A DNA stretch of 64,000 nucleotides from an uncultured Flavobacteriales bacterium (GCA_913051865.1 CAJXHE010000001.1:17320-81319); one strand, 5' to 3'. Counted from the first letter of the stretch, positions 2,286 to 61,327 are shown. Numbers and translations are program-made. Notes: generated by a model not told the origin, from the sequence alone.

Positions 2286-2293
2286 CAAAGATA
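2286..2293 (-). promoter_or_regulatory. paaA -7 promoter box
   Basis: The minus strand reads TATCTTTG, a perfect match to the Bacteroidota sigma-A -7 consensus TAnnTTTG, ending 4 bases before the paaA ATG. No TTG -33 element is seen at the expected distance, which may mean the promoter needs an activator or tolerates a weak -33. Confidence 0.65.
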
Positions 2294-2316
2294 CTCGCAT
2301 AAGGTTTTTTTTAGAT

Positions 2317-2335
2317 ATGATTTCGATCAAATCAT
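2317..2335. promoter_or_regulatory. Palindromic operator candidate between paaA and paaE
   Basis: Perfect 7-base arms ATGATTT and AAATCAT separated by CGATC. Its centre (2326) is almost equidistant from the paaA box (2286-2293) and the paaE box (2357-2364), so it touches both predicted -33 regions. This is what a TetR- or PaaX-like dimer controlling both promoters would need. No regulator gene is visible in the window. Confidence 0.5.
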
Positions 2336-2356
2336 TAAAAATACATTTTCCCGAAT

Positions 2357-2364
2357 TATCTTCG
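2357..2364 (+). promoter_or_regulatory. paaE -7 promoter box
   Basis: TATCTTCG, one mismatch to TAnnTTTG, ending 4 bases before the paaE ATG at 2369. It mirrors the paaA box on the other strand around the palindrome at 2317-2335. Confidence 0.5.
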
Positions 2365-2368
2365 CGCC

Positions 2369-3439
2369 ATGTCTAAATTCCATAATCTTAGGGTCGTTGA
2401 AATAAGAAGAGAAACAGTTGATTCAGTTTCCTTGCTTCTGGAGTCCGTTTCCGGAGAAACTTTTCATTATAAAGCAGGGCAATACCTCACGCTTCGCACC
2501 ACCATTGATGGGGAAGATGTACGCAGAAGTTATTCTCTTTGTTCTGCACCTTACGAAGGCGTTTTGCGTGTTGCTGTCAAGGAAGTGCCCGACGGAAAAT
2601 TTAGCACATATGCAAACCGTGTTCTTGCAGTAGGGGATGTTTTAGAGTCAATGCTCCCTGATGGGAGGTTTACTGCAGACACCACTTCTAATGAGAATAA
2701 TCATTTGGGGTTTGCGGCCGGTTCCGGGATTACACCCATCATCAGTATTATTAAAGAAACGCTAAATTCTTCAGCAGAATCACGGTTTGCCCTTTTCTAT
2801 GTCAATAAGGAAACAGCAAGCATTATTTTCAAAGATGAACTCGCTGATCTTAAAGATGTCTACCTTGAAAGACTTCAGATTTTCAATCTGCTCACCAGAG
2901 AGCCAGTAGAAATTGAGATGTTCGGAGGGCGACTTGATCGCGCGCGTTTCGACAGAATCTTCTCCGAAGTTGTTTCCCCCTCTTCATATGATGTGTCTTA
3001 TCTGTGCGGTCCTGAAGAAATGATATTGGCTGGCAAGGACGCGCTTCTAAGTGCAGGTATGGATGAGTCGAAGATAAAATTTGAGCTGTTCACATCTTCG
3101 TCTCCTGCAAAAGAAAAGATTGCCCAAGTTCCTGACGCTTCGGCTTCTGGCGATCACGTTGATGTCGCTGTTGTTCTAGACGGGGTGACAACGACTGTCA
3201 GCGTAAAGCGTTCAGGGAAATCTATTCTCGATGTTGCACTTGATGCTGGTCTCGATGCTCCGTTTTCTTGCCAAGGTGGCGTATGTTGCTCGTGTCGTTG
3301 TAAAATGACTTCTGGTCGTGCATCTATGGATCTCAACTATGCACTTGAGCCCGATGAGGTTGAGAATGGTTATGTTCTGTCTTGTCAAAGTCATCCAGTA
3401 GGGGACGGTCCATTTGTTATGGACTTCGATCAGCCATAA
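2369..3439 (+). CDS. paaE: Phenylacetyl-CoA epoxidase reductase subunit PaaE
   Basis: A 356-residue flavin/iron-sulfur reductase that feeds NADPH electrons to the PaaABC diiron oxygenase. Order of domains: FAD-binding barrel (RRSYSLCSAPYEG near residue 53), NAD(P)-binding region (GFAAGSGITPIISIIKETL near 112 and YLCGPEEMI near 210), then a C-terminal plant-type 2Fe-2S ferredoxin domain with CQGGVCCSCRCKM and LSCQSHP supplying the four cysteines. Length matches E. coli PaaE. It is transcribed away from paaABCD instead of sitting downstream as in E. coli. The start sits 4 bases from a -7-like box, so the leader is extremely short. Confidence 0.95.
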   Translation: MSKFHNLRVVEIRRETVDSVSLLLESVSGETFHYKAGQYLTLRTTIDGEDVRRSYSLCSAPYEGVLRVAVKEVPDGKFSTYANRVLAVGDVLESMLPDGRFTADTTSNENNHLGFAAGSGITPIISIIKETLNSSAESRFALFYVNKETASIIFKDELADLKDVYLERLQIFNLLTREPVEIEMFGGRLDRARFDRIFSEVVSPSSYDVSYLCGPEEMILAGKDALLSAGMDESKIKFELFTSSSPAKEKIAQVPDASASGDHVDVAVVLDGVTTTVSVKRSGKSILDVALDAGLDAPFSCQGGVCCSCRCKMTSGRASMDLNYALEPDEVENGYVLSCQSHPVGDGPFVMDFDQP

Positions 3440-3449
3440 ACCACTTGGT

Positions 3450-5345
3450 TCAGGCTCTTTCAGAGAGCTCCAGCCAGCGCATTTCAGATGCGTCTAGTTC
3501 TTCTGTGATCTTGCCTAGCTTTTCGCCCAAACGTATAAGATCTTCGTGCGCGTTGCACGCTTCAAGTTCAGTTGCCAATAAATCACGCTGTATTTCAAGC
3601 GCAGTGATTTTGGGCCCCAGGGTCTCATATTCAAACTTTTCTTTATAGGATAGCTTTTCAGTGTAATTTCCTTTTACATCTGATGAATGTTCTTTTGTTT
3701 TTTTTGATGTGGCTGTTGCTGCTGTTGCTGCGGCTTGAGACAACGCAATTTGTTCTTTTCTTGCGAGTCTATACTGGGTGTAGTTGCCAGGATAGTCTCT
3801 TACAGATGTCGCACCACCTTCGCCTATAGCCCAAACATGTTCTACGATCTTGTCCATGAAATACCGATCGTGAGACACCACCAACAGGCAGCCCGTAAAA
3901 TCAAGTAGGAACTCTTCGAGTACAGCAAGAGTGAAGATATCTAGGTCGTTTGTGGGCTCGTCGAGTATAAGGAAATTGGGATTCTTCATCAACACACGAA
4001 GCAGGTGGAGACGTTTCTTTTCGCCTCCGCTTAACACCTTGATGTATTGGTAATGCATGTGCTTCGGGAAGAGGAAGCGTTCCAAGAGTTGTGCTGCGGT
4101 AAGTTTGCCTCCTCCTTTTAAAGGGATGTAATCAGCAATTTCCTTCACGGCATCAATGACTTTCCAATCTAAGCTGAAGTTGCCTCCGAGTTGATGATAG
4201 TGTCCGAACACAACGGTTTCGCCCACAGAGACCTTTCCCGAATCAGGCTTCTGTAATCCGAGGATCATGTTTAACAGGGTTGTCTTTCCCGATCCATTTG
4301 TACCTACAATTCCAATTCTCTCTCCTCTTTTGAAGTGGTGTGTTAGTCCATTAAATAGTGTGCGATCACCAAATGCACATGAAATTTTGTGTAATTCGAC
4401 GACCTTTCCTCCAAGACGTTCAGGAATCACTGAGATGTGCATGGGGTCATTTTTCAATCGTACAGCCGCTTCTTTCTTGATTTCATAAAAACGGTCGATC
4501 CTGCTTTTGCTCTTTCCTGTTCTGGCAGAAGGCGTGGAGCGCATCCAAGCCAACTCTCTTTTCATCGCTTTTTGGGCCCTGTCTTTTGCAGCTTGCGCAT
4601 TTTCTCGATGTTCATCACGCTTTTCGAGATAGTAACTGAAGTTGCCTTTGTATGAATAGAGTTGGTTGTTCTCGATCTCTAAGATGCGGTCACAGACATT
4701 TTCGAGGAAATATCGATCGTGTGTGATCATAAAGATGGTCGCGTTGGTCGATTTAAGACGTTTTTCGAGCCATGCGATCATTTCTAAATCAAGATGGTTT
4801 GTGGGCTCATCTAAGAAAATCAAATCCGGCGCTTCAAGGAGAACAGCGGCTAGCGCTGCGCGTCTTTTTTCTCCACCGCTTAAAGTGCCAACCTTCCGTG
4901 TGAGATCATGTAAGTTGAGTTGGCCTAAAACTTCTCGCGCTCTGGCTTCGTAGTTCCACGCTTGGGTTCGGTCCATCGCGTCACAAGCATCCTGAAATTT
5001 GACACCTTCAGCTCCCTTTGACAATTCGCGTTCGTAGTTCTTCATGGCTACGACCGCAGGATTGTCTCCTATATATAAGGTGTCGAGCAAGGTCGCTTCG
5101 GCATCCAAGTCTGCTTCTTGCTTCAAAAAGGACCATCTTACACCTCCTTCAAAAGCAATTCTCCCCTCATCTGCGGGTTCGATATCACACAGAGCACGCA
5201 TCAATGTGCTCTTGCCTGTTCCGTTTCTTGCAACCAATGCAACCCGGTGTCCCCGACCCAATCCAAAGGTTAAATTCTCAAAAAGCATGCGTTCGCCATA
5301 CCTTTTGGACAACCCCTCTACTGATAAAACGTTCTGTTCTGCCAT
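3450..5345 (-). CDS. ABC-F family ATPase (Uup-like)
   Basis: 631 residues with two ABC domains and no membrane segments, the hallmark of ABC-F ribosome-associated ATPases. Domain 1 has Walker A VARNGTGKST, signature LSGGEKRR and Walker B DLIFLDEPTNHLDL. Domain 2 has GTNGSGKTT, LSGGEKKR and NFLILDEPTNDLDI. A charged inter-domain linker (residues about 240-300) and a C-terminal coiled coil (EKFEYETLGPKITALEIQRD) point to the Uup branch, which binds nucleic acid or ribosomes. The first Walker A has Ala where Gly is usual at position 1, also common in this clade as far as I recall. An alanine/threonine-rich stretch precedes the coiled coil. Convergent with paaE; single gene with its own box. Confidence 0.88.
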   Translation of the reverse strand: MAEQNVLSVEGLSKRYGERMLFENLTFGLGRGHRVALVARNGTGKSTLMRALCDIEPADEGRIAFEGGVRWSFLKQEADLDAEATLLDTLYIGDNPAVVAMKNYERELSKGAEGVKFQDACDAMDRTQAWNYEARAREVLGQLNLHDLTRKVGTLSGGEKRRAALAAVLLEAPDLIFLDEPTNHLDLEMIAWLEKRLKSTNATIFMITHDRYFLENVCDRILEIENNQLYSYKGNFSYYLEKRDEHRENAQAAKDRAQKAMKRELAWMRSTPSARTGKSKSRIDRFYEIKKEAAVRLKNDPMHISVIPERLGGKVVELHKISCAFGDRTLFNGLTHHFKRGERIGIVGTNGSGKTTLLNMILGLQKPDSGKVSVGETVVFGHYHQLGGNFSLDWKVIDAVKEIADYIPLKGGGKLTAAQLLERFLFPKHMHYQYIKVLSGGEKKRLHLLRVLMKNPNFLILDEPTNDLDIFTLAVLEEFLLDFTGCLLVVSHDRYFMDKIVEHVWAIGEGGATSVRDYPGNYTQYRLARKEQIALSQAAATAATATSKKTKEHSSDVKGNYTEKLSYKEKFEYETLGPKITALEIQRDLLATELEACNAHEDLIRLGEKLGKITEELDASEMRWLELSERA

Positions 5346-5349
5346 GTTC

Positions 5350-5357
5350 GCAAGGTA
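5350..5357 (-). promoter_or_regulatory. -7-like box of the ABC-F gene
   Basis: The minus strand reads TACCTTGC, 4 bases before the ATG at 5345. It lies between two direct copies of GTTCGCA on the plus strand (5346-5352 and 5358-5364). Confidence 0.4.
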
Positions 5358-5450
5358 GTTCGCATATGTCGAGATACCTCTGTAAACCCCTAAAACATTG
5401 ATTATACAGCCTGTGTTAACAATCTTACGTTCATATATATGGGGGGCGTG

Positions 5451-5458
5451 TATATTTG
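5451..5458 (+). promoter_or_regulatory. -7 box upstream of the small outer-membrane protein gene
   Basis: TATATTTG is a full match to TAnnTTTG, about 50 bases before the ATG at 5508. Unlike most boxes in this window it would give a real 5' leader of roughly 40-45 bases. A run of six G residues precedes it. Confidence 0.5.
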
Positions 5459-5507
5459 ATGTGCTTTTACCATCGGATATTGGGCCAAACCTTAAAACAT
5501 TGGTTCT

Positions 5508-5945
5508 ATGAAAAAATTATTTACATTATTTGCGTGTGCTTCTTTGGCATTTACGCTATCGGCTCAGGATTCTTCGCAACCTGCTGGCTCTTGGTATCTA
5601 GGGAGTGGTGATGCCACTTCAATGTTAAACATCTTCTCCTCAGGGGTAGACATGCACGCTACAGTTGGCTACGCTGTTGCTGATGATATCGTTTTGACTG
5701 CTAAATCTACATTCGGCGGAGAATTCGATGCCCTTGACCTCTCCGTTGGAGCGGCATACTTTATGGGAGATTACTATGTTGGTTTGGGTGTACACGATCC
5801 AATCAATGATCTCGACTTAAGTATTAATGCTGGTCGTTACATTGATTTTAAGGATGTGCTATACTTAACACCTCAACTCAATATTGACGCGTTGTTAGGC
5901 GATCCAAATGTTTCTTTTACTATTGGTTTCGGAGCGCGCTTCTAA
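5508..5945 (+). CDS. Small outer-membrane beta-barrel-like protein (hypothetical)
   Basis: 145 residues with a clear signal peptide (MKKLFTLFACASLAFTLSAQ, cleavage after SAQ). The mature part alternates short hydrophobic strands and turns (DDIVLTAKSTFGGEF, DYYVGLGVHDPIN, DVLYLTPQLNIDALL) and ends in FTIGFGARF, an aromatic C-terminus typical of proteins inserted by BamA. This suggests a small porin-like or OmpW/OmpX-size barrel of about eight strands. I cannot assign a named family. The gene stands alone between its own promoter box and a strong hairpin terminator, so it is monocistronic and possibly well expressed. Confidence 0.75.
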   Translation: MKKLFTLFACASLAFTLSAQDSSQPAGSWYLGSGDATSMLNIFSSGVDMHATVGYAVADDIVLTAKSTFGGEFDALDLSVGAAYFMGDYYVGLGVHDPINDLDLSINAGRYIDFKDVLYLTPQLNIDALLGDPNVSFTIGFGARF

Positions 5946-5963
5946 GACATCTTTACTGATTTG

Positions 5964-5997
5964 AAAAAGGGCAGCCTTCGGGTTTGCCCTTTTTTTT
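5964..5997 (+). terminator. Rho-independent terminator after the small OMP gene
   Basis: Stem AAAAAGGGCA / TGCCCTTTTT with an inner GCC-TTCG-GGT tetraloop, followed by a run of eight T. It begins about 18 bases after the stop codon. Confidence 0.9.
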
Positions 5998-6089
5998 GTG
6001 GTTATAAAATAAAAGACTGTAATTTGTATGTGAGATCTGCGAAAAAACCTCACCTTCACTTTCTCATATCAAGATAAAGAATCATTTTA

Positions 6090-6587
6090 ATGCCCAATTT
6101 GTCAAAACGCACTTCTTCATTCAATTTTTTCACTTCTTTTTGGGGTGATTTGACACGTGATGAACTTCATGCGATTCTCCGTTTGAGAATAGATGTCTTC
6201 GTTGTGGAGCAAGATTGTCCATATTCAGAGTTGGATGGGAAAGATTTGAAGTCAATTCATGTCTATGCTTTTAAATCAGACGATGATATGGCTTCCGGAG
6301 ATGCTGCAGCTGCGACTGTTCGTATTTGCGCTCCGGGTTTGAGCTATTCTGAACCCAGTATAGGTAGAGTGGCTACAAGGTCCGATTGTAGAGGGGTAGG
6401 GCTTGGAATCGAGATTATGAATCGTGCGATTGCGGAATGTGACAAGCAATATCCAGGGTTGGGAATTCGCATTTCAGCACAATGCTACCTTGAGAAATTT
6501 TACGCTGATTTGGGCTTTAAATCAACGGGGGAGACCTATCTCGAAGATGACATCCCCCATATTCAGATGTTTAGAGCGAGTCGCTAA
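6090..6587 (+). CDS. ElaA-like GNAT N-acetyltransferase
   Basis: 165 residues. The N-terminal block LTRDELHAILRLRIDVFVVEQDCPYSELDGKD is the recognisable ElaA signature, followed by the acetyl-CoA-binding GNAT core (GRVATRSDCRGVGLGIEIMNRA, motif A) and YLEKFYADLGFKSTGETYLEDDIPHIQM (motif B end). Length agrees with the family (about 150). The substrate is unknown. The gene is followed 3 bases later by the convergent stop of pyrG. The region 5998-6089 is AT-rich, with a TAATTTG stretch that could be a promoter. Confidence 0.85.
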   Translation: MPNLSKRTSSFNFFTSFWGDLTRDELHAILRLRIDVFVVEQDCPYSELDGKDLKSIHVYAFKSDDDMASGDAAAATVRICAPGLSYSEPSIGRVATRSDCRGVGLGIEIMNRAIAECDKQYPGLGIRISAQCYLEKFYADLGFKSTGETYLEDDIPHIQMFRASR

Positions 6588-6590
6588 AGG

Positions 6591-8288
6591 TTAGGCGCGA
6601 AGCGAGTCCTGTTTGTTTTCAGCATTTAGAGTGCCTGGTCCAGCTAATACAGCTGCGCGGACGAATGAAATAAAGAGTGGGTGAGGTGCGAGAACAGTCG
6701 AGGCGTATTCCGGATGAAACTGAGTAGCGATGAAGTATTGGTGGGCGGGGATCTCAATGATTTCCACCAATTCACTCACTGGGTTGATTCCTGTTGCAAT
6801 CATTCCTGCCTTCTCAAATTGCGCTCTGTATTCCTCGTTGAACTCATATCGATGACGGTGACGCTCTTCAATAGACGATGTGCCGTAGATCTCACGAACT
6901 TTTGAGCCTTCCATGAGGTCGCACGGGTAGGCGCCGAGGCGCATTGTTCCTCCCATGTCTGTAATTGATTTCTGCTCAGCCATCAGATTAATGACAGGGT
7001 GAGGCGTGTACTCTTTGATTTCAGAAGAGTGTGCATCCGTGAGGTCGAGGACGTTTCTCGCATATTCAACCACTGCGCATTGCATTCCGAGGCAGATGCC
7101 GAAGAATGGAATGTCGTTTGTTCTTGCAAAATGAATGGATTCAAGTTTGCCGTCGATCCCACGAGATCCAAACCCAGGGGCGACAAGGATTCCATTTAAG
7201 TGTCCCAGTTTTTCTTGGACGTTTTTACGAGAGATTTGTTCGGAGTGAATCCAGTGAATGTCGACTCTGGTTTTGAGATTTGCGCCAGCATGTGAGAGCG
7301 CCTCAGCGATGCTTTTATAACTGTCTTTGAGCTCGACATACTTTCCTATCAGACCTATGTGAACGGTTTGGTCTGGGTTTTTAAAACGGTATAGGAAGTT
7401 TTTCCACTCCGTAAGATTGGGTTTATCTACCTTGCTAAGGTCTACATCTAATTTATTGAGAACCACTTCGTCAAGCCTCTCGTCTTGCATTAATAGTGGA
7501 ACATCGTAAATGGTCTCTGCGTCGATGGATTCGATGACTGAGTCGTGACTTACGTTGCAGAATTGAGCCAGTTTTGTTCTTATGGAAGGCGTGAGGTTGT
7601 GTTCCGTTCTACAGACGAGAATGTCGGGTTGAACACCCAGTTCAAGCAATTGCTTCACGGAGTGTTGCGTGGGCTTTGTTTTAAGTTCTCCAGCAGCTTT
7701 TAAGTAGGGTATAAGCGTTAAATGGATCACAAGTGTGTCCTTGGGATTTTGCCATTTCATTTGGCGTACTGCCTCAATATATGGGAGTGATTCTATATCA
7801 CCTACTGTTCCGCCGATCTCAGTAATGACAAAATCAAACTCACTCTGTGATCCAAGAATTTGAATTGAGCGCTTGATTTCATCTGTAATGTGAGGTATAA
7901 TTTGAACGGTTTTCCCCAAGTACTCACCTCTACGCTCTTTATTGATCACAGACTGATAGATGCGGCCTGTGGTAATGTTATTTGCTTGGGTTGTACAGAC
8001 GTTAAGGAACCGTTCATAGTGTCCCAAATCCAAATCTGTCTCAGCGCCGTCCACTGTGACATAACATTCTCCATGTTCATATGGATTCAAAGTGCCTGGG
8101 TCAACGTTAATATATGGGTCGAGTTTCTGTATTGTCACACGGTAACCTCTCGCCTGAAGTAGCTTTGCCAAAGAGGCACTTACAATGCCTTTTCCCAAAC
8201 TGGAACTCACGCCTCCAGTCACAAAAATATAACGGCTATTGTGGCCATTAATGCTTGATTTACTGGACTCTAAAGGTGTGTTAGGCAT
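6591..8288 (-). CDS. pyrG: CTP synthase
   Basis: 565 residues. PyrG makes CTP from UTP, ATP and glutamine. The N-terminal synthetase domain opens with YIFVTGGVSSSLGKGIVSASLAKLL (P-loop-like) and contains YINVDPGTLNPYEHGECYVTVDGAETDLDLGHYERF. The C-terminal class I glutaminase domain has GLIGKYVELKDSYKSIAEAL, the nucleophile loop PFFGICLGMQCAVVEY and the His/Glu pair QFHPEY. All catalytic parts are intact and the length is normal (about 540). The extra N-terminal residues up to INGHNSRYIF are a non-conserved tail. A TACCTTTG box lies about 30 bases upstream. Confidence 0.98.
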   Translation of the reverse strand: MPNTPLESSKSSINGHNSRYIFVTGGVSSSLGKGIVSASLAKLLQARGYRVTIQKLDPYINVDPGTLNPYEHGECYVTVDGAETDLDLGHYERFLNVCTTQANNITTGRIYQSVINKERRGEYLGKTVQIIPHITDEIKRSIQILGSQSEFDFVITEIGGTVGDIESLPYIEAVRQMKWQNPKDTLVIHLTLIPYLKAAGELKTKPTQHSVKQLLELGVQPDILVCRTEHNLTPSIRTKLAQFCNVSHDSVIESIDAETIYDVPLLMQDERLDEVVLNKLDVDLSKVDKPNLTEWKNFLYRFKNPDQTVHIGLIGKYVELKDSYKSIAEALSHAGANLKTRVDIHWIHSEQISRKNVQEKLGHLNGILVAPGFGSRGIDGKLESIHFARTNDIPFFGICLGMQCAVVEYARNVLDLTDAHSSEIKEYTPHPVINLMAEQKSITDMGGTMRLGAYPCDLMEGSKVREIYGTSSIEERHRHRYEFNEEYRAQFEKAGMIATGINPVSELVEIIEIPAHQYFIATQFHPEYASTVLAPHPLFISFVRAAVLAGPGTLNAENKQDSLRA

Positions 8289-8319
8289 GTTCCCGAATTC
8301 GAAGTATGAATACGGGGTT

Positions 8320-8327
8320 CAAAGGTA
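8320..8327 (-). promoter_or_regulatory. pyrG -7 promoter box
   Basis: The minus strand reads TACCTTTG, a perfect TAnnTTTG match about 31 bases before the pyrG start; a TTTG lies 16 bases further upstream. The remaining intergenic bases 8328-8451 are AT-rich with an AAAATTA/TAATTTT inverted repeat and a nine-T run; no gene is seen there. Confidence 0.5.
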
Positions 8328-8451
8328 GAAGAAAGATTGTCTACAAATACCTATTGTTTAAAATTAGTTTAATTTTAATTCTAACGATTTTTTTTTGCTC
8401 TGTGAAAAGTGGGTCAGGCAATTGAATCAAATACTTAAGGTGTTCGAAAGC

Positions 8452-9540: not shown

Positions 9541-9565
9541 TTTTACTTCATCTTATGAAAGCAAG

Positions 9566-10048: not shown

Positions 10049-10074
10049 GGCTAAATATTTTAATAAGGATGGTG

Positions 10075-10082: not shown

Positions 10083-10103
10083 CAGATACAAATTACTTAT
10101 AAA

Positions 10104-11616: not shown

Positions 11617-12972
11617 TTATTGTGGGGTGTCTGCGCCACCAAACCTCCCCGAGCTCATCATGAGTACACAGTGATTTTCTTTTGGGATGTCTTGAAGCCG
11701 ATTCTCCAGTTGATCCACTGACGTTATGACCTCAACATCTTCTCTACCAAAACACGCGATGACTTCTTGTTTTGAAATTGCGGGAAGCCTTTTATGCTTG
11801 ACCACTTCAGGATCATAGAATACGATGGCATGATCAACAGCGTTCATGCTTCCTTTGTATTGCGGCAGGAATTGTTTATTCAAACTTGAGAATGTATGGA
11901 GCTCGAATACTGCAGTGACTGACCTGTCTGGATAAGACCCCACGACGCCCGCTTGTGTCGCTTTCAGTTTTGAGGGTGCATGCGCAAAATCTCTATAGAC
12001 GGTAAAGTTTTTCTCTGGTCTGTCAACAGCAACTTCAAGCCGTCTTGCTGCACCTGTAAATCCTTCGATGGCGCCATCGAATTCTCCGACATCTATCCCC
12101 AATGATTGACACACAGCTCTCGCTCCAGCAAGGTTTTGGAAGTTGTGTGCGCCCACAAGAGACGTTTTAACGCAGGTTTTATCCGAATAGGTGATCTCTG
12201 ATGCGCCATTGCCCGGAATGCTTTTAGGTGTCTCATAAGGTGTAAGATGAATATCTTTCCTTGCGATGCGGGCTTCTTCAATAAGATGCACGAGTTGTGG
12301 GTCTTCACTACAATAGGCCAGTGTTGCGCCTTTCTCCATCGTTCCTATAAACTCACGGAATGTGTCTAAGTAGCTTTCTTCAGTGGGGAAGACATTGATG
12401 TGATCCCATGCGATGCCTGTAATGATGGCAAGATGGGGCTTGTAGTGAAGGAATTTGGATCTGCGATCTATGGGCGAACTCAGATACTCGTCTCCCTCAA
12501 TAATAGCCAGATCGTTTGCTTCATCTAGCTTAAGCATCCGGTCAAACCCAGCGAGTTGAGCACCCACCATATAATCTGCATTCCTACCTAGTGCGTTAAG
12601 GACGTGAAGAATCATAGATGTGATCGTTGTTTTTCCGTGCGACCCACCGACGACGACCCTTTGTTTGTTTTTAGTTGCTTGGAATAAAAATTCTGGATAC
12701 GATTGTATACTCAGCCCTAGCTCTTTCGCTTTTGCAAGCTCCGGATTATCTCTAAGGGCATGCATGCCTAGGATGACAACATCTATATCTTTTGTGATTG
12801 TATCGGGATACCAACCTTCATTATCTGGTAAAAGCCCTGCGTCTTCAAGCCTGCCACGACTCGGTTCAAAGATTTGGTCATCACTGCCTGATACCTCATG
12901 TCCCAAATGATCAAGTGCAAGTGCAAAATTATGCATCGCACTGCCTCCTATCGCTATTAGATGAATCCTCAT
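11617..12972 (-). CDS. mpl: UDP-N-acetylmuramate:L-alanyl-gamma-D-glutamyl-meso-diaminopimelate ligase
   Basis: 451 residues of the Mur ligase family. The N-terminal UDP-binding part starts MRIHLIAIGGSAMHNFALALDHLGHEVSGSDD; the ATP loop is VVVGGSHGKTTITSMILHVL; the central domain has IIEGDEYLSSPIDRRSKFLHYKPHLAIITGIAWDHINVFP; the C-terminal domain has YRDFAHAPSKLKATQ. The GGSAMHN and AHAPSK features separate Mpl from MurC (which has GIGG and DYAHHP). Mpl reattaches recycled murein tripeptide to UDP-MurNAc, so the cell recycles peptidoglycan. Single gene between two rightward genes. Confidence 0.93.
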   Translation of the reverse strand: MRIHLIAIGGSAMHNFALALDHLGHEVSGSDDQIFEPSRGRLEDAGLLPDNEGWYPDTITKDIDVVILGMHALRDNPELAKAKELGLSIQSYPEFLFQATKNKQRVVVGGSHGKTTITSMILHVLNALGRNADYMVGAQLAGFDRMLKLDEANDLAIIEGDEYLSSPIDRRSKFLHYKPHLAIITGIAWDHINVFPTEESYLDTFREFIGTMEKGATLAYCSEDPQLVHLIEEARIARKDIHLTPYETPKSIPGNGASEITYSDKTCVKTSLVGAHNFQNLAGARAVCQSLGIDVGEFDGAIEGFTGAARRLEVAVDRPEKNFTVYRDFAHAPSKLKATQAGVVGSYPDRSVTAVFELHTFSSLNKQFLPQYKGSMNAVDHAIVFYDPEVVKHKRLPAISKQEVIACFGREDVEVITSVDQLENRLQDIPKENHCVLMMSSGRFGGADTPQ

Positions 12973-13039
12973 GTGGTAAAGTTGAACATTTGTCTCCTCA
13001 CTTTTGCGTTATTCAAAACCTTTTTCCCACATTGCACTT

Positions 13040-19734: not shown

Positions 19735-19742
19735 CAAATTTA
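19735..19742 (-). promoter_or_regulatory. -7 box of the SSS symporter gene
   Basis: The minus strand reads TAAATTTG, a perfect consensus match ending 5 bases before the ATG at 19729, so the message should be leaderless or nearly so. Confidence 0.55.
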
Positions 19743-19768: not shown

Positions 19769-19776
19769 TATCTTTA
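19769..19776 (+). promoter_or_regulatory. -7 box of recR
   Basis: TATCTTTA ends 4 bases before the GTG start at 19781. It faces away from the symporter box at 19735-19742; the two divergent promoters share 26 bases. Confidence 0.5.
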
Positions 19777-23773: not shown

Positions 23774-23781
23774 TAACTTGT
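23774..23781 (+). promoter_or_regulatory. -7-like box before the TPR/propeller gene
   Basis: TAACTTGT, ending 4 bases before the ATG at 23786, in an AT-rich gap (23715-23785). It supports ATG 23786 over the GTG at 23780, which would overlap the box. Confidence 0.4.
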
Positions 23782-23785: not shown

Positions 23786-25894
23786 ATGTTGAAACACCCG
23801 ATTCTATTTGCAATTATTTGTTTCTTTACGGTTGTATCGTCAAATAATATTCTAAGTCAGACCCATTCAAAATCTGCGCGTCATTCTCTGTCTCAGTCCG
23901 ACAGATTGGTGTTTGATCAAGCGTCTATGCTTACTGAAGAAGGAATATATCACGAAGCGGCAAGGATATGGAAGGGGCTCGTGGATGATTATCCAAACTG
24001 TGGAAATTACAGGTATCACTATGCTGTTTGTTTGTTAAATTCTGGCGCACCAGTTGAGTCAGTGAACCAAGAATTAACGACTGCCATGTCAATGTCGGGT
24101 TCTTTAATTTCGGGTTCAGGGAAATTTAATGAAGATATATGTGAAGCGCCTGTTGACGTTTTGGTGTATGCTTCTCAAGTAAAAATGTTGCTTTTAGAGT
24201 TTGATGACGCGCTTCGTTTGTTGTCTCGATTCAATGTCGAAGCAAAAAAATGGAACCCACTTCGACGTAACGCTGATCATCTTCTTTCGAATATTGACAT
24301 GGCCCAGAACCTTATTGCGAGTCCGATTGATGTCCAAGTGAGAAATATGGGGCCGCTAATAAACACGGAATTTGACGACACCCATCCAGTGATTAGGGCC
24401 GATGAAAAGCAACTGTTTTATTCTTCTCAAAGGGCCAGATCAAATGGGTCAAATCACGGATCTTTCGACCCGAACACGAAAGATCATTATGCTGACATTT
24501 ACGTGTCTGAACGTGACTCCGCTTGGGGAGAAGCTGAATGGGTAAATATTGGCCTTAAAAAGCACAAGTTTGCCTTGGCAATTTCTCCTTTCGGTGAGGA
24601 TCTTTCGATTGCACATTTGGATGGTTGGGATGAATTGGTTTTCCATTCAAATAAAAGAAAAGGAAAATGGCAAAAAGCTGTTGCCTCGAGTGTGATTCCC
24701 GATGCGCCGTCTGAAGGTGTTATTGTGTTTTCGCCAAACAATTCAATCGCGATCATGAGTATTGCTGACAGAAAGGGGAGAACCGGATTTGATCTGTACC
24801 AGTATACCAAGCTCTCAGACGGCAGTTGGTCAAACCCTGAGCTCATTCAAGGTCCCATCAATTCTGATAGAAATGAGATGTCTCCGTTTATCTCAGCTGA
24901 CGGTACTTTGTTTTTTGCCTCAAATCGTCAAACGAGTATGGGGGGCTATGATTGCTATCGTTCTGTGTTTGAAAATGGAAAGTGGAGTGATCCGGTGAAT
25001 CTCGGATTTCCTATTAATACTGTTGATGATGACAGATATTTTGCGATTTCTGCTGAGGGAACACGCGCTTATATTGCCTCTAGAAGAAACCGTCCCTTAA
25101 ATGATTATGACATTTTCGAAATCACGTTTACTGAAGCGTCACAAATTGTCAATGGCAATATTATGCTGTTAAATGCGCCGCTTGAGGTGGATTTTGATCG
25201 CATTACGCTGACATCTTTACAGTCTGGAAATACGGATGATGTCATGGTTTCAGAAGACAACGAACAATTTCTTCGCGCGGTGATATACGGAGGTCAATCC
25301 TACATCATTGATTACTTTAAAGACGGTGCTGTAATGATAACCGACACGCTAGAAATTGCGACAGATGCAGGATACCATGTCTATACTGACCCCATCGATT
25401 CATTTGAAGCGGGGATTTCTGGTGATGGTTCATTGCGCGTGGAGAAATATGTTGAACCAGAACCCGAGTTGATTGATGCTTCAATGTCATTGGAAGATTC
25501 GCTTGAACTTTTAAGTTTGTTTGGTCCGTCGCCGGAAGCGGAAAGTTGGATTTCTGTTTTTAAACTTAATTCACTCCAAATTCACACGCCCGGTATTGAC
25601 ATTACTTCAATGGCAAATGAGGTTTTAAGAAGAATCAATGAAGAAAGACATCCAGAACTGCTTGTCTCTTCGAGTGCATTTAGAGATGAAACAACATCCT
25701 TTGAAGATGCGAATGCCTTTTCGGGAAAGCGCTCAGCAAATGTTTTTATCAGACTGAAAAAGATTTTGCTAAATATGGGATACACAAATAAGGTGGATTA
25801 CACGTTCTTGCCTTTTGAAATAAAGGTTGTGACTGACCCAGACGACGACACACCTGATTACGTGAAAATAACAATAACTTCAAGCCTTCAATAA
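23786..25894 (+). CDS. TPR / PD40 beta-propeller envelope protein with a diverged OmpA-like C-terminus
   Basis: 702 residues from the ATG at 23786. A signal peptide (MLKHPILFAIICFFTVVSSNNILSQ) is followed by a TPR-like region (DQASMLTEEGIYHEAARIWKGLVDDYP), then PD40/TolB-type propeller blades (FDDTHPVIRADEKQLFYSSQRA, MSPFISADGTLFFASNRQTSMGGYDCYRS, RYFAISAEGTRAYIASRR), and a mixed domain around 450-560. The last 110 residues (NAFSGKRSANVFIRLKKILLNMGY) resemble an OmpA peptidoglycan-binding fold, but the GHTD aspartate is missing. The order of domains is that of PorE of the type IX secretion system. It is a cousin of the gene at 43148-45220, which keeps a canonical OmpA domain. Confidence 0.75.
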   Translation: MLKHPILFAIICFFTVVSSNNILSQTHSKSARHSLSQSDRLVFDQASMLTEEGIYHEAARIWKGLVDDYPNCGNYRYHYAVCLLNSGAPVESVNQELTTAMSMSGSLISGSGKFNEDICEAPVDVLVYASQVKMLLLEFDDALRLLSRFNVEAKKWNPLRRNADHLLSNIDMAQNLIASPIDVQVRNMGPLINTEFDDTHPVIRADEKQLFYSSQRARSNGSNHGSFDPNTKDHYADIYVSERDSAWGEAEWVNIGLKKHKFALAISPFGEDLSIAHLDGWDELVFHSNKRKGKWQKAVASSVIPDAPSEGVIVFSPNNSIAIMSIADRKGRTGFDLYQYTKLSDGSWSNPELIQGPINSDRNEMSPFISADGTLFFASNRQTSMGGYDCYRSVFENGKWSDPVNLGFPINTVDDDRYFAISAEGTRAYIASRRNRPLNDYDIFEITFTEASQIVNGNIMLLNAPLEVDFDRITLTSLQSGNTDDVMVSEDNEQFLRAVIYGGQSYIIDYFKDGAVMITDTLEIATDAGYHVYTDPIDSFEAGISGDGSLRVEKYVEPEPELIDASMSLEDSLELLSLFGPSPEAESWISVFKLNSLQIHTPGIDITSMANEVLRRINEERHPELLVSSSAFRDETTSFEDANAFSGKRSANVFIRLKKILLNMGYTNKVDYTFLPFEIKVVTDPDDDTPDYVKITITSSLQ

Positions 25895-32812: not shown

Positions 32813-32820
32813 TATCTTGC
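32813..32820 (+). promoter_or_regulatory. -7-like box of hutH
   Basis: TATCTTGC ends 4 bases before the hutH ATG at 32825; it lies 14 bases from the divergent M16 box. Confidence 0.45.
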
Positions 32821-47798: not shown

Positions 47799-47827
47799 AG
47801 CCTGCAAGATATAACTTGCAGCCTATG
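47796..47827. promoter_or_regulatory. Mirrored divergent promoter of aroC and hutI
   Basis: A 32-base inverted repeat: CATAGCCTGCAAG and CTTGCAGCCTATG match in 12 of 13 positions around ATATAA. The inner arms (CTGCAAG/CTTGCAG) are perfect. The two ATG codons are the outer ends of the arms. Boxes TATCTTGC (minus) and TAACTTGC (plus) each end 5 bases before their ATG; a TTG is found 21 bases upstream of the hutI box (47788-47790). Confidence 0.6.
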
Positions 47828-49081: not shown

Positions 49082-49110
49082 ATCTACATCTTGTGTGTTA
49101 GTTTTACTTC

Positions 49111-52004: not shown

Positions 52005-52008
52005 GCAG

Positions 52009-52043
52009 CAAAGGTACTATTTAATAAATATGGAAAACAAAAA
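52009..52043 (-). promoter_or_regulatory. trmD promoter (-33 and -7 elements)
   Basis: The minus strand reads TTTTTG, 21 bases, then TACCTTTG, ending 4 bases before the GTG start. This is the most complete Bacteroidota sigma-A promoter in the window. The TTTTTG is also the T tract of the terminator of the upstream peptidase gene. Confidence 0.75.
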
Positions 52044-54325: not shown

Positions 54326-54346
54326 TTATAGGGTGTTAAATTTATA

Positions 54347-54844: not shown

Positions 54845-54846
54845 GG

Positions 54847-56778: not shown

Positions 56779-56785
56779 TGCGGCG

Positions 56786-56793
56786 CGAAGTTA
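56786..56793 (-). promoter_or_regulatory. -7-like box of yidC
   Basis: The minus strand reads TAACTTCG, 7 bases before the yidC ATG. It separates yidC from the kdsC operon, whose last stop is at 56826. Confidence 0.4.
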
Positions 56794-56825
56794 GTTAAGT
56801 AAGCCGAAAATCGAATCGCGTTTTA

Positions 56826-57344
56826 TCACCATTTGTGAGCATGCTTTGAAGCCCAAATCCCTTTTAATCTCATGGCTTGCTCAATTAAATCTCTCACACA
56901 GCCCTTCCCGCCATTTTTCGGGCTGATGTAATGTGCGACACTCCTGATTTCTTCAACGGCATCGTCAGGGGCGACTGCCAAACCGACTTCACGCATCGCA
57001 GGTAAATCAGGGATGTCGTCCCCCATGTATGCGACCTTGCTTAGGGAGATGTCCAGTTTCAGGCACAGTGTTTTCAATGATTCGAGTTTATCCTCACACC
57101 CAAGGTGTACTTCTGTGACGCCGAGTTTTCTCATTCTGTCGCCCACGGCCTTATCATTGCCTCCGGTTAATACAGCAATCTTTAATCCTTGTTTCACGGC
57201 CCATTGAACCGCATAGCCATCACGTGTAGATGCTTGTCTGACTTGAGACCCGTCAGGAAATAACAGTACGATTCCGTCTGTAAAAACACCGTCGTAATCA
57301 AATACAAAAATCTCTATTTCGGCAAGTTTTGTTTTATAATTCAT
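56826..57344 (-). CDS. kdsC: KdsC-type HAD phosphatase (3-deoxy-D-manno-octulosonate 8-phosphate phosphatase)
   Basis: 172 residues. HAD motif I is EIFVFDYDGVFTDGIVLLFPDGSQVRQASTRDGYAVQWAVKQGLKIAVLTGG, motif III K in EDKLESLK and motif IV YMGDDIPDLPAMREVGLAVAP. The D-x-D-G-V-x-T-D-G pattern is typical of KdsC, which makes free Kdo for LPS. Without a Kdo operon in view the exact substrate is inferred. The start overlaps the end of the DUF2520 gene by 11 bases; a DUF2520-KdsC pair is frequent in Bacteroidota. Confidence 0.85.
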   Translation of the reverse strand: MNYKTKLAEIEIFVFDYDGVFTDGIVLLFPDGSQVRQASTRDGYAVQWAVKQGLKIAVLTGGNDKAVGDRMRKLGVTEVHLGCEDKLESLKTLCLKLDISLSKVAYMGDDIPDLPAMREVGLAVAPDDAVEEIRSVAHYISPKNGGKGCVRDLIEQAMRLKGIWASKHAHKW

Positions 57345-58119
57345 GGCTGTCTGCGATATGCTTGCTTACAAACTTGTAAAATTCAGTAAGTGCTTTGTTG
57401 TTTGAAAATCCTTTGAGTAATTCCAAGTGTTTCATTTGGCTTCCAAGATCTTTTCTAAGGGCGACGCCGGTCTGAAGTGAATATGAATTTCCCGATTTGG
57501 CGCCTTCCATCAATCCTTCTGCCAGGGGTCTCATCAGGTCTTTCGGTAAACCTTCTTCATCTAGAATTTGTTGCGAGAGCGCGAAGCAGTGATTTGAGAA
57601 GTTGTGTGTAAACACAGCTGCCAAATGGATTTTTGCGCGTGTTTGTGAGGATGCGTTAAAGGGTATTCCTCCACTTTCTTTCACCAACCTGTGAAGCATC
57701 GCTTGAAATTCCTTTGAGCCAGCTTCCACAGCGAAAGGTACCTCTGTGAGGTCTTCCACATGTGTGTTTGCACTGAAGCTTTTGATAGGCCAAATCACAC
57801 CATTCTCTCCACCTAAAACATCCTTGTCAGTCACGCCAGAAGTGTGGAATCTTTTGACTTTGTGAGGCAATGATTGTGCGACCTCTCGGATTGCGTCATC
57901 ACTGACTAACACCGCCACGGCATCAATGTCTGTGGACAATGTCGCGAGGTCATCGACAACGACTGCATTAAGTTTACGGCCTAATTCCTGAGCTCGATCT
58001 TGAGACCGTCCCCAAACCTCAACGATCTCTACACCCCCCTTTTGCCATGCCTGCCCGAGCGCTTGCGCCACTCTCCCTGTGCCAGCGATACTCATACGTA
58101 TGGGTTTAGAGATATTCAT
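57334..58119 (-). CDS. DUF2520 Rossmann-like protein
   Basis: The track ORF begins at 58200, but the ATG at 58119 (MNISKPIRMSIAGTGRVAQALGQAWQKGGVEIVEVWGRS) is the more likely start because it forms an ATGA overlap with the preceding gene. This gives 261 residues: an NAD(P)-binding Rossmann half (IAGTGRVAQALG, AVAVLVSDDAIREVAQSL) and the DUF2520 helical half (AKIHLAAVFTHNFSNHCFALSQQIL). It is related to pyrroline-5-carboxylate and ketopantoate reductase folds; the true reaction is not known. It is the third gene of a four-gene overlapped operon. Confidence 0.85.
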   Translation of the reverse strand: MNISKPIRMSIAGTGRVAQALGQAWQKGGVEIVEVWGRSQDRAQELGRKLNAVVVDDLATLSTDIDAVAVLVSDDAIREVAQSLPHKVKRFHTSGVTDKDVLGGENGVIWPIKSFSANTHVEDLTEVPFAVEAGSKEFQAMLHRLVKESGGIPFNASSQTRAKIHLAAVFTHNFSNHCFALSQQILDEEGLPKDLMRPLAEGLMEGAKSGNSYSLQTGVALRKDLGSQMKHLELLKGFSNNKALTEFYKFVSKHIADSHEL

Positions 58120-59069
58120 TCGGGTGTGGTTTGGACGGAATGATTGCGTTTCGAAAACAGTTGAATAATCCCGAAAGCTACGAGAAAAACACCAAACCAA
58201 ACCATGACGACTAGCTTGTATCGCGTGACGCGAAGCGCAATGATATTTGTGTGTTTCTTTGCCTTAGATTCTTCAATAATTTCCGTTTTTACGGTTGACC
58301 AAAAATTGTATTGAAGCGAGGCGGTGATGTCTTCCCCAGGAACCCCATTTTCCCATTCTTGAGCGGTCTCTTTTTGCGTTTTGTTAGGGAAGGGAATGCT
58401 GTTCCAAACGTCTTCTATGTCTGAAAAAAACGCTGCAGAGGCCAAATGTGTTTTGTTGGCTTTAAAAAACAGCTCGTCAAACCTGACAATGGCGCCTTTT
58501 TCATAACAATTGGGAATTCTTTCAAGGATGATTATTTCTTCGTCGGATACTGCATCTAATAATGGGGCGCAAATAAAATAGGATTCCATTTTCACGGTGT
58601 CTCCTTTGAAGATGTAAAGCGTGTCATTCCCATTCGTTCTCGAGATCACCTCTTTTGAGAGATCTACGTAAACCGCTCCAGAACAGACAGTTGCGATACC
58701 GATAAAAACCAGGGTTCCCTTTGGTTGAATGACTGCGTATGATAACCCCGTATAGAGAGATGCAAAGAACAGCACCAAATGGGGGTATTCATGAGGGTCA
58801 GCTTGTAAATGATTCTGGAGAATTAATGTAAGGAACGTTGATATGGTGACTGCGAGTAGGGGGCGCCAAAGTGCTTTCCTGGTTTTTAAGAAAGGAAGTG
58901 TGCCTGAAAGAAACAGCAAAAGAGTGAGCAGGGGGATTCCCAGTCTGACAAGTATATCCTCAAATTGGGGGAATAAAATCAGTGAGACGGCTGTTAGGAT
59001 TGCAAATAACAGAAGTGCATTTCTTAGAAAGAAAGTAAGTTCAATAAAGGTGGCACGCCCCTTTTGCAT
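58116..59069 (-). CDS. Hypothetical membrane protein with a large extracytoplasmic loop
   Basis: 317 residues, not recognised. Five hydrophobic spans in the N-terminal 135 residues (ALLLFAILTAVSLILF, IPLLTLLLFLSGTLPFL, LAVTISTFLTLIL, LVLFFASLYTGLSYAV, GTLVFIGIATVCSGAVYV), a soluble region about 140-280 with two cysteines (YFICAPLLD, RIPNCYEKG), and one C-terminal span (LVVMVWFGVFLVAFGIIQLF) with a basic tail. The stop overlaps the DUF2520 start by 4 bases and the start overlaps the exonuclease stop by one base. Confidence 0.6.
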   Translation of the reverse strand: MQKGRATFIELTFFLRNALLLFAILTAVSLILFPQFEDILVRLGIPLLTLLLFLSGTLPFLKTRKALWRPLLAVTISTFLTLILQNHLQADPHEYPHLVLFFASLYTGLSYAVIQPKGTLVFIGIATVCSGAVYVDLSKEVISRTNGNDTLYIFKGDTVKMESYFICAPLLDAVSDEEIIILERIPNCYEKGAIVRFDELFFKANKTHLASAAFFSDIEDVWNSIPFPNKTQKETAQEWENGVPGEDITASLQYNFWSTVKTEIIEESKAKKHTNIIALRVTRYKLVVMVWFGVFLVAFGIIQLFSKRNHSVQTTPE

Positions 59070-59620
59070 TAAACGATATTCATAGGTTTTGCAACTTTAA
59101 TAAAGAGTTCAGCCATATTTCTGGCATCGGCGATTGCTCTATGTTGCGTCCCATTAAACTCGAGTCCTTCATGAATCAGTGCGTTCTTAAGTCCGATTTG
59201 ATTCTTTGCACCTTTGTATTTGCTGTAATGTCTCTGAAGGCAAGCCCAATACTTTAACCAGTCAAGTTTTAGGTTGTGATGTCTTGCGTCTGCGACAAAC
59301 TGCCTGTGGTCAAATTCGCCCCAACTGAAGAGTGCTGTTCTGGCCGAAGCACAATCCATCCAGTCTTCAAATCGTTTAATAACAACATTAAAATGATCTG
59401 CGTACTCAACGTCTTCTTGTGTTATGCTTGTCAGTTTCGTGCAAAATTTATCAATCTGGGGATGTATCACAGGAAGGATGAACTCACTGAATTCATCGAC
59501 GATTTCCAAATCCTCATTGACTCTAACGGCTCCGATTTCAATAATTTCTACCTGCCTAGGTTTGGGGCTTCTCCAACAAGTCGCCTCTAAATCATATATA
59601 ATAAATTGTCTTTTTGACAT
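59069..59620 (-). CDS. ERI-1/KapD-like 3'-5' exonuclease
   Basis: 183 residues of the DEDDh exonuclease fold. The motif QFIIYDLEATCWRSPKPRQVEIIEIGAV and the downstream PQIDKFCTKLTSITQEDVEYADHF closely follow the ERI-1/Thex1/KapD subfamily (DxEATCW, P..FCT.LT.ITQ), distinct from DnaQ. The third motif NGTQHRAIADARNMAELFI supplies the catalytic His and Asp. ERI-1 family enzymes trim RNA in eukaryotes; the bacterial role is uncertain (RNA or DNA 3' ends). A TATCTTTA box lies 7 bases before the ATG. First gene of the exo-membrane-DUF2520-kdsC operon. Confidence 0.83.
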   Translation of the reverse strand: MSKRQFIIYDLEATCWRSPKPRQVEIIEIGAVRVNEDLEIVDEFSEFILPVIHPQIDKFCTKLTSITQEDVEYADHFNVVIKRFEDWMDCASARTALFSWGEFDHRQFVADARHHNLKLDWLKYWACLQRHYSKYKGAKNQIGLKNALIHEGLEFNGTQHRAIADARNMAELFIKVAKPMNIV

Positions 59621-59627
59621 CGATGTG

Positions 59628-59635
59628 TAAAGATA
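59628..59635 (-). promoter_or_regulatory. -7 box of the ERI-1-like exonuclease operon
   Basis: The minus strand reads TATCTTTA, 7 bases before the ATG at 59620, in the 31-base gap after accC. Confidence 0.45.
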
Positions 59636-59651
59636 CTTTACGCTGAGCCCA

Positions 59652-61160
59652 TTATCTCTCTTCTCGGTTTCTCCAAGGTGATCGAATGGTTACAATAGCA
59701 TTTTCTTGTTGAACTTTGGTTTTTTCGTCATTGACTCTTTGACTGAGTTCAGCGACCAGTGAGGCAAATATCTCGTCATCTACCGGAAGTTCTCGAATGA
59801 GCTTCTCGGCAGTAAAATGATCATTGACAAATCCAGTGTCGAAGTTTCCTGATCGAAACGCCTCGTGGTTTATCGCAAAACGGCCGAAGTCGAGCGTTGT
59901 TCTTACACCGCGAATCTCGTAGTTATCTATTGCATGAAGCATTTTCTCAATACAAGCTTCACGTGAAGAAGCATGCACGATCAATTTTGCGAGCATGGGG
60001 TCATAATGTATGCTCACTTCTCCACCTTGAATGACGCCATCGTCAACTCTGATTCCTGGTCCGACAGGAGGGACGTACTTGTTCAGGATTCCAGTTCCAG
60101 GAAGAAATCCCTTTGAGGCGTCTTCTGCATATACCCTTAATTCTATTGAATGTCCTGCGATACTTAAGTCACCCTGTGAAAAGGACAATTCTTGGCCTTC
60201 TGCGATCCTGATTTGTTCTCTAACCAAATCAATTCCGGTGATAAATTCTGTGACGGGATGTTCTACTTGAAGTCGGGTATTCATTTCAAGGAAGAAGAAG
60301 TTTTTATCTGCATCGACGAGAAATTCAACTGTTCCTGCCCCTACATAATTGCAAGCGCGAGCAACTTCGATGGCGCACTGCCCCATCTCATTTCTTAATG
60401 TATCATCGAGTAACGATGACGGTGCTTCTTCGACCACTTTTTGGTGCCTGCGTTGAATGCTACATTCACGTTCAAACAAATGCACACAATTGCCGTGCAT
60501 ATCTGCCAATACCTGGACTTCGATATGTCTGGGTTGAAGCACCAATCGTTCCATAAATACGGCACCGTTTCCGAAAGACCTTTCAGCCTCAGAAATGGCC
60601 CTGGTCAGCTCTTCTTCAACGTCTTCAATTTCAAAAACAGACCTCATTCCTTTTCCTCCTCCTCCTGCGCTCGCTTTGATGATGAGTGGCATGCCAATTC
60701 TATGCGCTTCCTTTAAAGCTTCTTTTGAATCTGAAATGGCGCCATCTGTTCCAGGAACTAAGGGGATGTTTCTCGCTTTTACGGCTTCTTTTGCTTGAAG
60801 CTTGTCACCCATTGTTCTTATTGCCATTGTGCCAGGCCCTATAAAAGCAATGCCTGCTTTTTCGACGCATTCAGCAAATTCAGCGTTCTCAGATAGAAAA
60901 CCATATCCAGGGTGGATTCCGTTTGCCCCCGTATCAATTGCTGCTTGTAAGACCTTATCTGAGAGAAGGTAACTCTCTGAGGAAGGTCCTGGACCTAAAC
61001 AAACGGCTTCATCAGCGGCCATAACGTGGGGAGCAACAACATCTGTTTCTGAATAAACAGCCACAGTAGAAATTCCCATTTCTTGAGCAGTACGAATAAT
61101 TCTCAAAGCAATCTCGCCTCTGTTGGCGATTAAAATCTTTGTAATTTTTCGGTTCGTCAT
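59652..61160 (-). CDS. accC: Biotin carboxylase subunit of an acyl-CoA carboxylase
   Basis: 502 residues. The ATP-grasp biotin carboxylase fold: KILIANRGEIALRIIRTAQEMG, HPGYGFLSENAEFAE, ASAGGGGKGMRSV (ATP), ERECSIQRRHQKVVEEAPS, LEMNTRLQVEHPVTE and RVYAEDASKGFLPGTG. It charges biotin on a carrier protein with CO2. It has no biotinyl domain, and no accB or carboxyltransferase adjoins. The C-terminal end (EVSIHYDPMLAKLIVHASSREACIEKM and FDTGFVNDHF) looks more like the propionyl/acetyl-CoA carboxylase alpha chains than like the 450-residue fatty-acid AccC, so the symbol is tentative. It lies 43 bases after the ffs RNA gene. Confidence 0.9.
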   Translation of the reverse strand: MTNRKITKILIANRGEIALRIIRTAQEMGISTVAVYSETDVVAPHVMAADEAVCLGPGPSSESYLLSDKVLQAAIDTGANGIHPGYGFLSENAEFAECVEKAGIAFIGPGTMAIRTMGDKLQAKEAVKARNIPLVPGTDGAISDSKEALKEAHRIGMPLIIKASAGGGGKGMRSVFEIEDVEEELTRAISEAERSFGNGAVFMERLVLQPRHIEVQVLADMHGNCVHLFERECSIQRRHQKVVEEAPSSLLDDTLRNEMGQCAIEVARACNYVGAGTVEFLVDADKNFFFLEMNTRLQVEHPVTEFITGIDLVREQIRIAEGQELSFSQGDLSIAGHSIELRVYAEDASKGFLPGTGILNKYVPPVGPGIRVDDGVIQGGEVSIHYDPMLAKLIVHASSREACIEKMLHAIDNYEIRGVRTTLDFGRFAINHEAFRSGNFDTGFVNDHFTAEKLIRELPVDDEIFASLVAELSQRVNDEKTKVQQENAIVTIRSPWRNREER

Positions 61161-61203
61161 TATTCGTTGTCTGATTTCTGATTCAAAATCGAGGCATAAT
61201 AAA

Positions 61204-61300
61204 GGGGCAAGCGATTCTTATCGCACCGCTCAACCGCATACCCTTGCTGCCTTCCGGCCCTGGGGGGTTCAGCGGGAGCTGGTCGTAAGAGACTTGCCCC
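61204..61300 (-). ncRNA. ffs: Signal recognition particle RNA (4.5S-type, ffs)
   Basis: Not in the ORF track. The minus strand gives a 97-base RNA closed by GGGGCAAG at the 5' end and CTTGCCCC at the 3' end. The apical part contains GGGCCGGAAGGCAGCAAGGG, which is the SRP domain IV core with the GGAA tetraloop and the asymmetric bulge that binds Ffh. Length and stem ends agree with the short bacterial 4.5S RNA, and a perfect TATCTTTG box lies 5 bases before the first G. It forms the signal recognition particle with Ffh to target membrane proteins. A T-rich stretch follows the 3' end and may serve as the terminator. Confidence 0.96.
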
Positions 61301-61305
61301 AAGTG

Positions 61306-61313
61306 CAAAGATA
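61306..61313 (-). promoter_or_regulatory. -7 promoter box of ffs
   Basis: The minus strand reads TATCTTTG, a perfect consensus 5 bases upstream of the predicted first nucleotide of the SRP RNA. Because the RNA end can be inferred from the stem, this fixes the box-to-start distance at about 5-6 bases and supports reading the boxes of the protein genes as leaderless. Confidence 0.7.
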
Positions 61314-61319
61314 AGGTAG

Positions 61320-61327
61320 TATCTTTC
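61320..61327 (+). promoter_or_regulatory. -7-like box of the DUF4199 gene
   Basis: TATCTTTC ends 4 bases before the ATG at 61332, with a TTG at 61294-61296 (23 bases upstream) inside ffs. It lies 6 bases from the ffs box and mirrors it. Confidence 0.5.

Follow-up and report, generated by a model that had tools for sequence, protein, structure and literature searches.

In leaderless initiation, a 5'-terminal AUG is recognized by 30S or 70S ribosomes together with initiator tRNA. Leaderless genes have been predicted to be abundant in Actinobacteria and Deinococcus-Thermus (PMC3160421, PMC9581028). Genomes of the FCB group were classed as using AT-rich sites other than Shine-Dalgarno (SD) sites (PMC9581028), and in the survey of Zheng 2011, which searched for Pribnow-like boxes only, 1 of 37 Bacteroidetes/Chlorobi genomes was flagged, at 2.4% (PMC3160421). 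Published fractions of leaderless or short-leader genes in Bacteroidota lie between 4% and 13% (PMC9723704, PMC7366714, PMC6847099): 5.5% leaderless genes in Flavobacterium psychrophilum (PMC9723704), about 3.7% of 5' untranslated regions under 10 nt in Bacteroides thetaiotaomicron (PMC7366714), and 13% of leaders of 10 nt or less (87% over 10 nt) in F. johnsoniae, whose mapped start sites lie 4-5 nt after the -7 promoter box (PMC6847099). Here, we analyzed a 64,000-nucleotide stretch of DNA (the window; C1:17320-81319) from a small bacterial genome (1.97 Mb in 119 contigs, 91% coding), in which boxes of this type lie 4 or 5 nt before the start codons of many genes. We found that the messages of these genes are very probably leaderless or nearly so, with the Bacteroidota -7 promoter placed directly against the start codon. 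The genome is a member of the NORP19 genus of uncultured marine Bacteroidota (family coded f1); the aroC gene is identical between a genome of the same genus, G005, and the metagenome-assembled genome (MAG) 'Bacteroidetes bacterium NORP19' (NVXE01000009.1). The order to which the genome belongs is small and apparently stands apart from the well-sampled families of its class.

Enrichment of the -7 box next to the start codons of operon-first genes

Genes were called with a hexamer coding model and a custom caller that used no upstream signal, over 767 kb comprising the window and further stretches of the same genome (39% of one assembly; relatives were represented by samples), which gave 633 genes, including 330 operon-first and 174 divergent ones. 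With the gap defined as the number of nucleotides between the -7 box and the start codon, an exact TANNTT stood at gap 4 before 43 of the operon-first genes and at gap 5 before 13 of them, whereas the gaps from 10 to 49 averaged 4.55 boxes each (Poisson p about 4e-27 for gap 4). The gap-4 spike was strongest among divergent genes (31/174), and gaps of 3, 6, 7 and 8 were also present. The preliminary description of this DNA had judged the spacing too regular for chance and had named a lack of genome-wide enrichment at spacing 4-5 as the result that would overturn its leaderless interpretation; the first judgment is borne out by these counts, and the enrichment proved to be large and specific to ATG and to that spacing.

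An expectation-maximization (EM) mixture was started from TAnnTTTG, the position weight matrix and the spacing being refitted with the spacing free and confidence intervals obtained by bootstrap. The relearned box (T.80 A.79 H C.53 T.97 T.98 T.66 G.64; G at -10/-9 = 0.04/0.00) has the form TAHHTTTG without G at -10/-9, as in the Bacteroidota sigma-A -7 element TAnnTTTG. Gap 4-5 was assigned to 21.6% of operon-first genes (bootstrap 16-25%) and 28% of divergent genes, compared with 5.7% of operon-internal genes and 0.1-0.4% in shuffled sequence, and a strict count of strong boxes above background gave 13-15% of first genes and 20% of divergent ones. The box thus stands at a short fixed distance in many operon-first, not internal, genes, which is the pattern of a leaderless-rich genome. 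Depending on the method, the gap 4-5 arrangement accounts for about 13-28% of operon-first genes and is a substantial minority mode, and most operon-first genes still look leadered. The earlier view of leaderless translation as a major mode therefore has to be moderated: the share is considerable, but more genes (39% of operon-first genes in the EM fit) have a box 10-60 nt upstream.

The fitting of the same box 10-60 nt before other first genes indicates a promoter signal rather than a translation signal. An element of translation initiation (a T-rich S1 site or the AT-rich initiation region of Bacteroidota) might still be considered, as Bacteroidota start regions are AT-rich and promoter and S1-site signals were inseparable by base bias in Nakagawa 2017 (PMC5397173). 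However, the box is depleted in operon-internal genes, which show plain A-richness instead, equals the mapped -7 element, and precedes the genes for the signal recognition particle (SRP) RNA and RNase P RNA, all of which makes such an element extremely improbable as the explanation.

Restriction to one family

In genome-wide counts over 37 members of the family, TANNTTTG-N4-ATG occurred 3.42 times as often as the reversed-pattern control, compared with 1.09 times at spacing 12; the values for other families of the order were 1.64 and 1.34, respectively. The per-genome gap 4/gap 12 ratio had a median of 2.53 in the family versus 1.26 in the other families of the order (p 3e-7). In a wider survey of the phylum, most families lay at about 1 by eye, and raised values appeared in f35, f47 and one f15 genome. 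When GTG or TTG took the place of ATG, no enrichment was observed in 25 family genomes (ratios of 0.75 and 0.69, respectively). The gene-based pipeline gave 14% (EM) and 12% (flexible excess) for 20 stretches sampled from the family's other genera, 7% and 1% for other families of the order, and 2.3% (EM) and 0% (excess) for 611 first genes in 58 named Flavobacteriaceae loci, the last of which is compatible with the published rarity of leaderless genes. An arrangement that is concentrated in operon-first genes, conserved in orthologs (see below) and common to the family supports the leaderless reading.

With a small genome that is 91% coding, short intergenic regions might have pushed promoters against genes as a side effect of compaction, with no selected mode. 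This explanation, which concerns the origin and not the form of the messages, appears unlikely, since family genomes of 3-4.6 Mb are equally enriched and many leaderless-assigned genes have 80-500 nt of upstream space.

Sites in the window and their conservation

All 13 boxes named in the preliminary description, at gaps of 4, 5 or 7, were found at those distances when the sites were read directly in the window. The boxes are TAnnTTTG or near variants, with TAnnTTGY before ABC-F, hutH, aroC and hutI and TAnnTTCG before paaE and yidC. Orthologous sites were checked in four relatives (G011, G005, G004 and G008). The sites are as follows:

2286-2293, minus strand: paaA -7 box TATCTTTG, gap 4 to ATG (2281); gap 4 kept in G005 and G004
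2357-2364, plus strand: paaE -7 box TATCTTCG, gap 4 to ATG (2369); kept at gap 4 in G005, G004 and G008 (67-72% amino acid identity)
5350-5357, minus strand: ABC-F -7 box TACCTTGC, TAnnTTGY type, gap 4 to ATG (5345); kept in G005 and G004
12977-12984, minus strand: weaker box CAACTTTA of gene 11617-12972, gap 4 to ATG; weak model match
19735-19742, minus strand: sodium/solute symporter (SSS) -7 box TAAATTTG, gap 5 to ATG (19729); gap 4-5 in G011, G005, G004 and G008
19769-19776, plus strand: recR -7 box TATCTTTA, gap 4 to GTG (19781)
23774-23781, plus strand: -7 box TAACTTGT of the gene at 23786, gap 4 to ATG (23786); kept in G011 and G005
32813-32820, plus strand: hutH -7 box TATCTTGC, gap 4 to ATG (32825); kept in G011, G005, G004 and G008
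47804-47811, minus strand: aroC -7 box TATCTTGC, one half of a palindrome, gap 5 to ATG (47798)
47812-47819, plus strand: hutI -7 box TAACTTGC, back to back with the aroC box, gap 5 to ATG (47825); kept in the four relatives
49099-49106, plus strand: ftcD -7-like box TAGTTTTA, gap 4 to ATG (49111); an additional case beyond those named earlier
52009-52016, minus strand: trmD -7 box TACCTTTG, gap 4 to GTG (52004); box, gap and GTG kept in the four relatives
56786-56793, minus strand: yidC -7 box TAACTTCG, gap 7 to ATG (56778); gap 7 kept in G011, G005 and G004
59628-59635, minus strand: ERI-1-like exonuclease -7 box TATCTTTA, gap 7 to ATG (59620); gap 6-7 in the four relatives
61306-61313, minus strand: -7 box TATCTTTG of the small SRP RNA gene (ffs), 5 nt before the GGGGCAAGT stem
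61320-61327, plus strand: -7 box TATCTTTC of the DUF4199 gene, gap 4 to ATG (61332); kept at gap 4 in G011 and G005

Conservation was most complete for aroC, with TA[TC]CTTGC-N5-ATG in 12 of 12 genus genomes at protein identities down to 65%, and for recR, with TAT[AC]TTTA-N4-GTG in 11 of 11, the GTG start included. For trmD, hutH, hutI, paaE, SSS, yidC and the ERI-1-like gene, the box and a near-identical gap were present in most of the four relatives, and the weaker box CAACTTTA of gene 11617-12972 was kept at gap 4-5 in G011, G005 and G004. The ftcD box reads TAGTTTTA/G at gap 4 in G011 and G005 and TAATTTAG in G004, and is absent in G008; the ABC-F box is likewise absent from the region upstream of the G008 ortholog. 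The paaA gene of G008 has a similar promoter box followed by a longer A-rich leader, so that G008 and its congeners may present a natural leaderless-to-leadered difference. The gene at 23786, previously called a propeller gene, matches PorE/OmpA-type families.

The 26-bp intergenic region between aroC and hutI (47799-47824) is an almost perfect palindrome formed by two -7 boxes that abut. Two back-to-back boxes, each at gap 4-5, were found in three divergent pairs whose members are 25-29 bp apart: aroC-hutI, C7:3850/3876 (25 bp) and C6:19100/19130 (29 bp). Gaps of this size leave no room for leaders, and any transcript with a leader would need to begin within the gene opposite. Simultaneous binding of two polymerases at such compact pairs seems hardly possible, and the genes may be coupled.

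A different arrangement was seen at gene 6591-8288 (minus strand; about 8289-8328), where a TACCTTTG box is followed by a hairpin-like leader of about 30 nt, CCCCGTATTC...GAATTCGGGAAC, which is conserved in three relatives and is a putative structured leader.

Start codons of the boxed genes

The 72 leaderless-assigned genes start with ATG (60) or GTG (12) and never with TTG; in 83% of them a pyrimidine occupies position -1, and in none (0/72) does G. The lack of G at -1 and the restriction of the start base to A or G are as expected if the start base is also the transcription start. Their upstream regions score as non-coding in the hexamer model, and 49 of the 72 have no in-frame start further upstream. 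Among the 56 boxes at gap 4 or 5, 11 are of the TAnnTTGY type (G at -6, pyrimidine at -5), including those of ABC-F, hutH, aroC and hutI.

One could suppose that the true starts lie further downstream, the promoters feeding short leaders and the upstream ATG being an annotation error. Indeed, at three genes of the window the called start (23909, 61368 and 54676) differs from the longest or earlier-chosen one, which is because the caller ignores promoters. On the other hand, a chance ATG would not fall exactly 4-5 nt from a box throughout the genome, the codon is kept in orthologs, and codons 2-10 of the leaderless-assigned genes have hexamer scores like those of other genes. Moreover, the AroC N-terminus MAGN or MSGN, common across the phylum, begins at the boxed ATG, and the profile matches of TrmD and FtcD begin at position 1. 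Downstream starts are therefore highly improbable, and the start codons of the boxed genes, with N-termini and codons conserved in orthologs, appear to be authentic translation starts. Chance, a translation signal and misannotated starts were tested and rejected as main causes.

Since the shared N-terminus fixes its start, aroC offers a natural comparison among lineages. In Flavobacteriaceae, the best aroC box mostly lies upstream at a distance of 13-25 nt or else about 40 nt, compared with 4-7 nt in NORP19 and several non-Flavobacteriaceae MAGs. An aroC box 4-5 nt before the start was also seen in scattered non-Flavobacteriaceae MAGs and in Nonlabens (L072, L089, L101, L110, L126, L127, L138 and L143), so leaderless aroC may be old or may have been gained repeatedly.

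Transcription start and a model of leaderless initiation

Considering the identity of the box, its spacing and statistics, its conservation and its restriction to the lineage, we propose that the boxes are -7 elements of housekeeping-type Bacteroidota promoters (TAnnTTTG); the form seen here is TA-H-C-TT-T-G, and there are variants with TAnnTTGY and TTCG. RNA polymerase would recognize the box and start 4-5 nt later, at the start codon or the preceding base, or within about three bases of the first base of the codon, and most gap 4-5 messages would be leaderless or have a leader of 1-3 nt. A start at or near the start codon is suggested by analogy with the mapping in F. johnsoniae, and we infer that the ribosome would choose the AUG (in some cases GUG) at the 5' end with no binding site upstream of it. 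In the family, this arrangement would coexist with ordinary leadered genes.

Scatter of the start site could instead produce leaders of 1-10 nt, with initiation functionally dependent on short leaders. Such a situation would agree with the gaps of 3, 6, 7 and 8 nt (7 in yidC and the ERI-1-like gene) and with the 4-5 nt between box and start site (PMC6847099). Nevertheless, gap 4 is a sharp mode, and it is retained in orthologs whose upstream sequence has diverged, so that short leaders have only a small chance of being the better description.

Several points weigh against leaderless messages built on the -7 promoter. First, the transcript 5' ends are predictions from box spacing, and leadered transcripts could also arise from an additional promoter located further upstream. 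Second, calibration by structural RNA genes is softer than the preliminary description had it: the ffs box does lie 5 nt upstream in the window, but the SRP RNA 5' stem begins 3-7 nt after the box across relatives (mode 4) and SRP RNA 5' ends can be processed, so ffs lends weak support; the RNase P RNA distances are scattered, because the 5' end of the model is not sharp. Third, the full promoter TTG-N17-23-TAnnTTTG proposed earlier was recovered in its -7 element, whereas the TTG (-33) was only weakly visible, being slightly raised at -37/-36 (10/72); this element is weak in F. johnsoniae as well. Fourth, TANNTTTG-N4-GTG is not enriched genome-wide, and the putative GTG cases are carried by ortholog conservation. 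Finally, the basis is a custom gene caller and 39% of the assembly.

Comparison with known systems

It is doubtful, and to be regarded as rather unlikely, that leaderless messages have been adopted by at least a quarter of the operon-first genes across the whole family and that the ribosome of the family has adapted, perhaps with decay of the anti-SD core in the genus. If true, it would be a natural experiment on translation initiation in a phylum without SD leaders; for F. johnsoniae, leaderless transcription has been expressly dismissed as the cause of the missing SD leaders. A putative 16S-like 3' end in one genome of the same genus (G003; C129:2175-2196) reads GGATTAACTCCTTTT, and other genera of the family read ACCTCC; the anti-SD core of G003 would then be ACUCC in place of CCUCC.

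Genes such as aroC and paaA differ between clades in whether they are leaderless or leadered, and this sister lineage, with its many conserved leaderless genes, offers matched pairs with which the requirements of Bacteroidota ribosomes can be tested. In addition, gene-start prediction in such genomes should take the -7 box into account, and separate promoters are possible for divergent genes even when these lie only 25-29 bp from each other.

The closest systems are the leaderless mRNAs of Flavobacterium and Bacteroides, which belong to the same phylum, use the same TAnnTTTG -7 element with a start 4-5 nt downstream, and do include leaderless genes. However, these are reported to be rare there, and the same pipeline gave about 0-2% for pooled Flavobacteriaceae versus 13-28% here. 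The ABC-F, hutH, aroC and hutI boxes fit the SM5 class of F. psychrophilum (TAnnTTGY) in the same -12 to -5 position; SM5 is attributed to a likely alternative sigma factor, is associated with amino-acid scavenging genes and has no link to leaderless starts, and the likeness here is one of box sequence and position. In Actinobacteria, Deinococcus-Thermus and the leaderless bacteria of GeneMarkS-2, a sizeable minority of first genes likewise have a promoter box at a fixed short distance, alongside genes that have leaders. These clades use Pribnow-type -10 boxes and mostly have SD leaders too, whereas the boxes here are of the Bacteroidota -7 type in a phylum without SD. No leaderless-rich Bacteroidota family was found reported in the literature searched. 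Leaderless genes themselves are known in bacteria, and the novelty here would lie in their abundant use with the Bacteroidota -7 promoter as its basis, within a phylum that lacks SD leaders.

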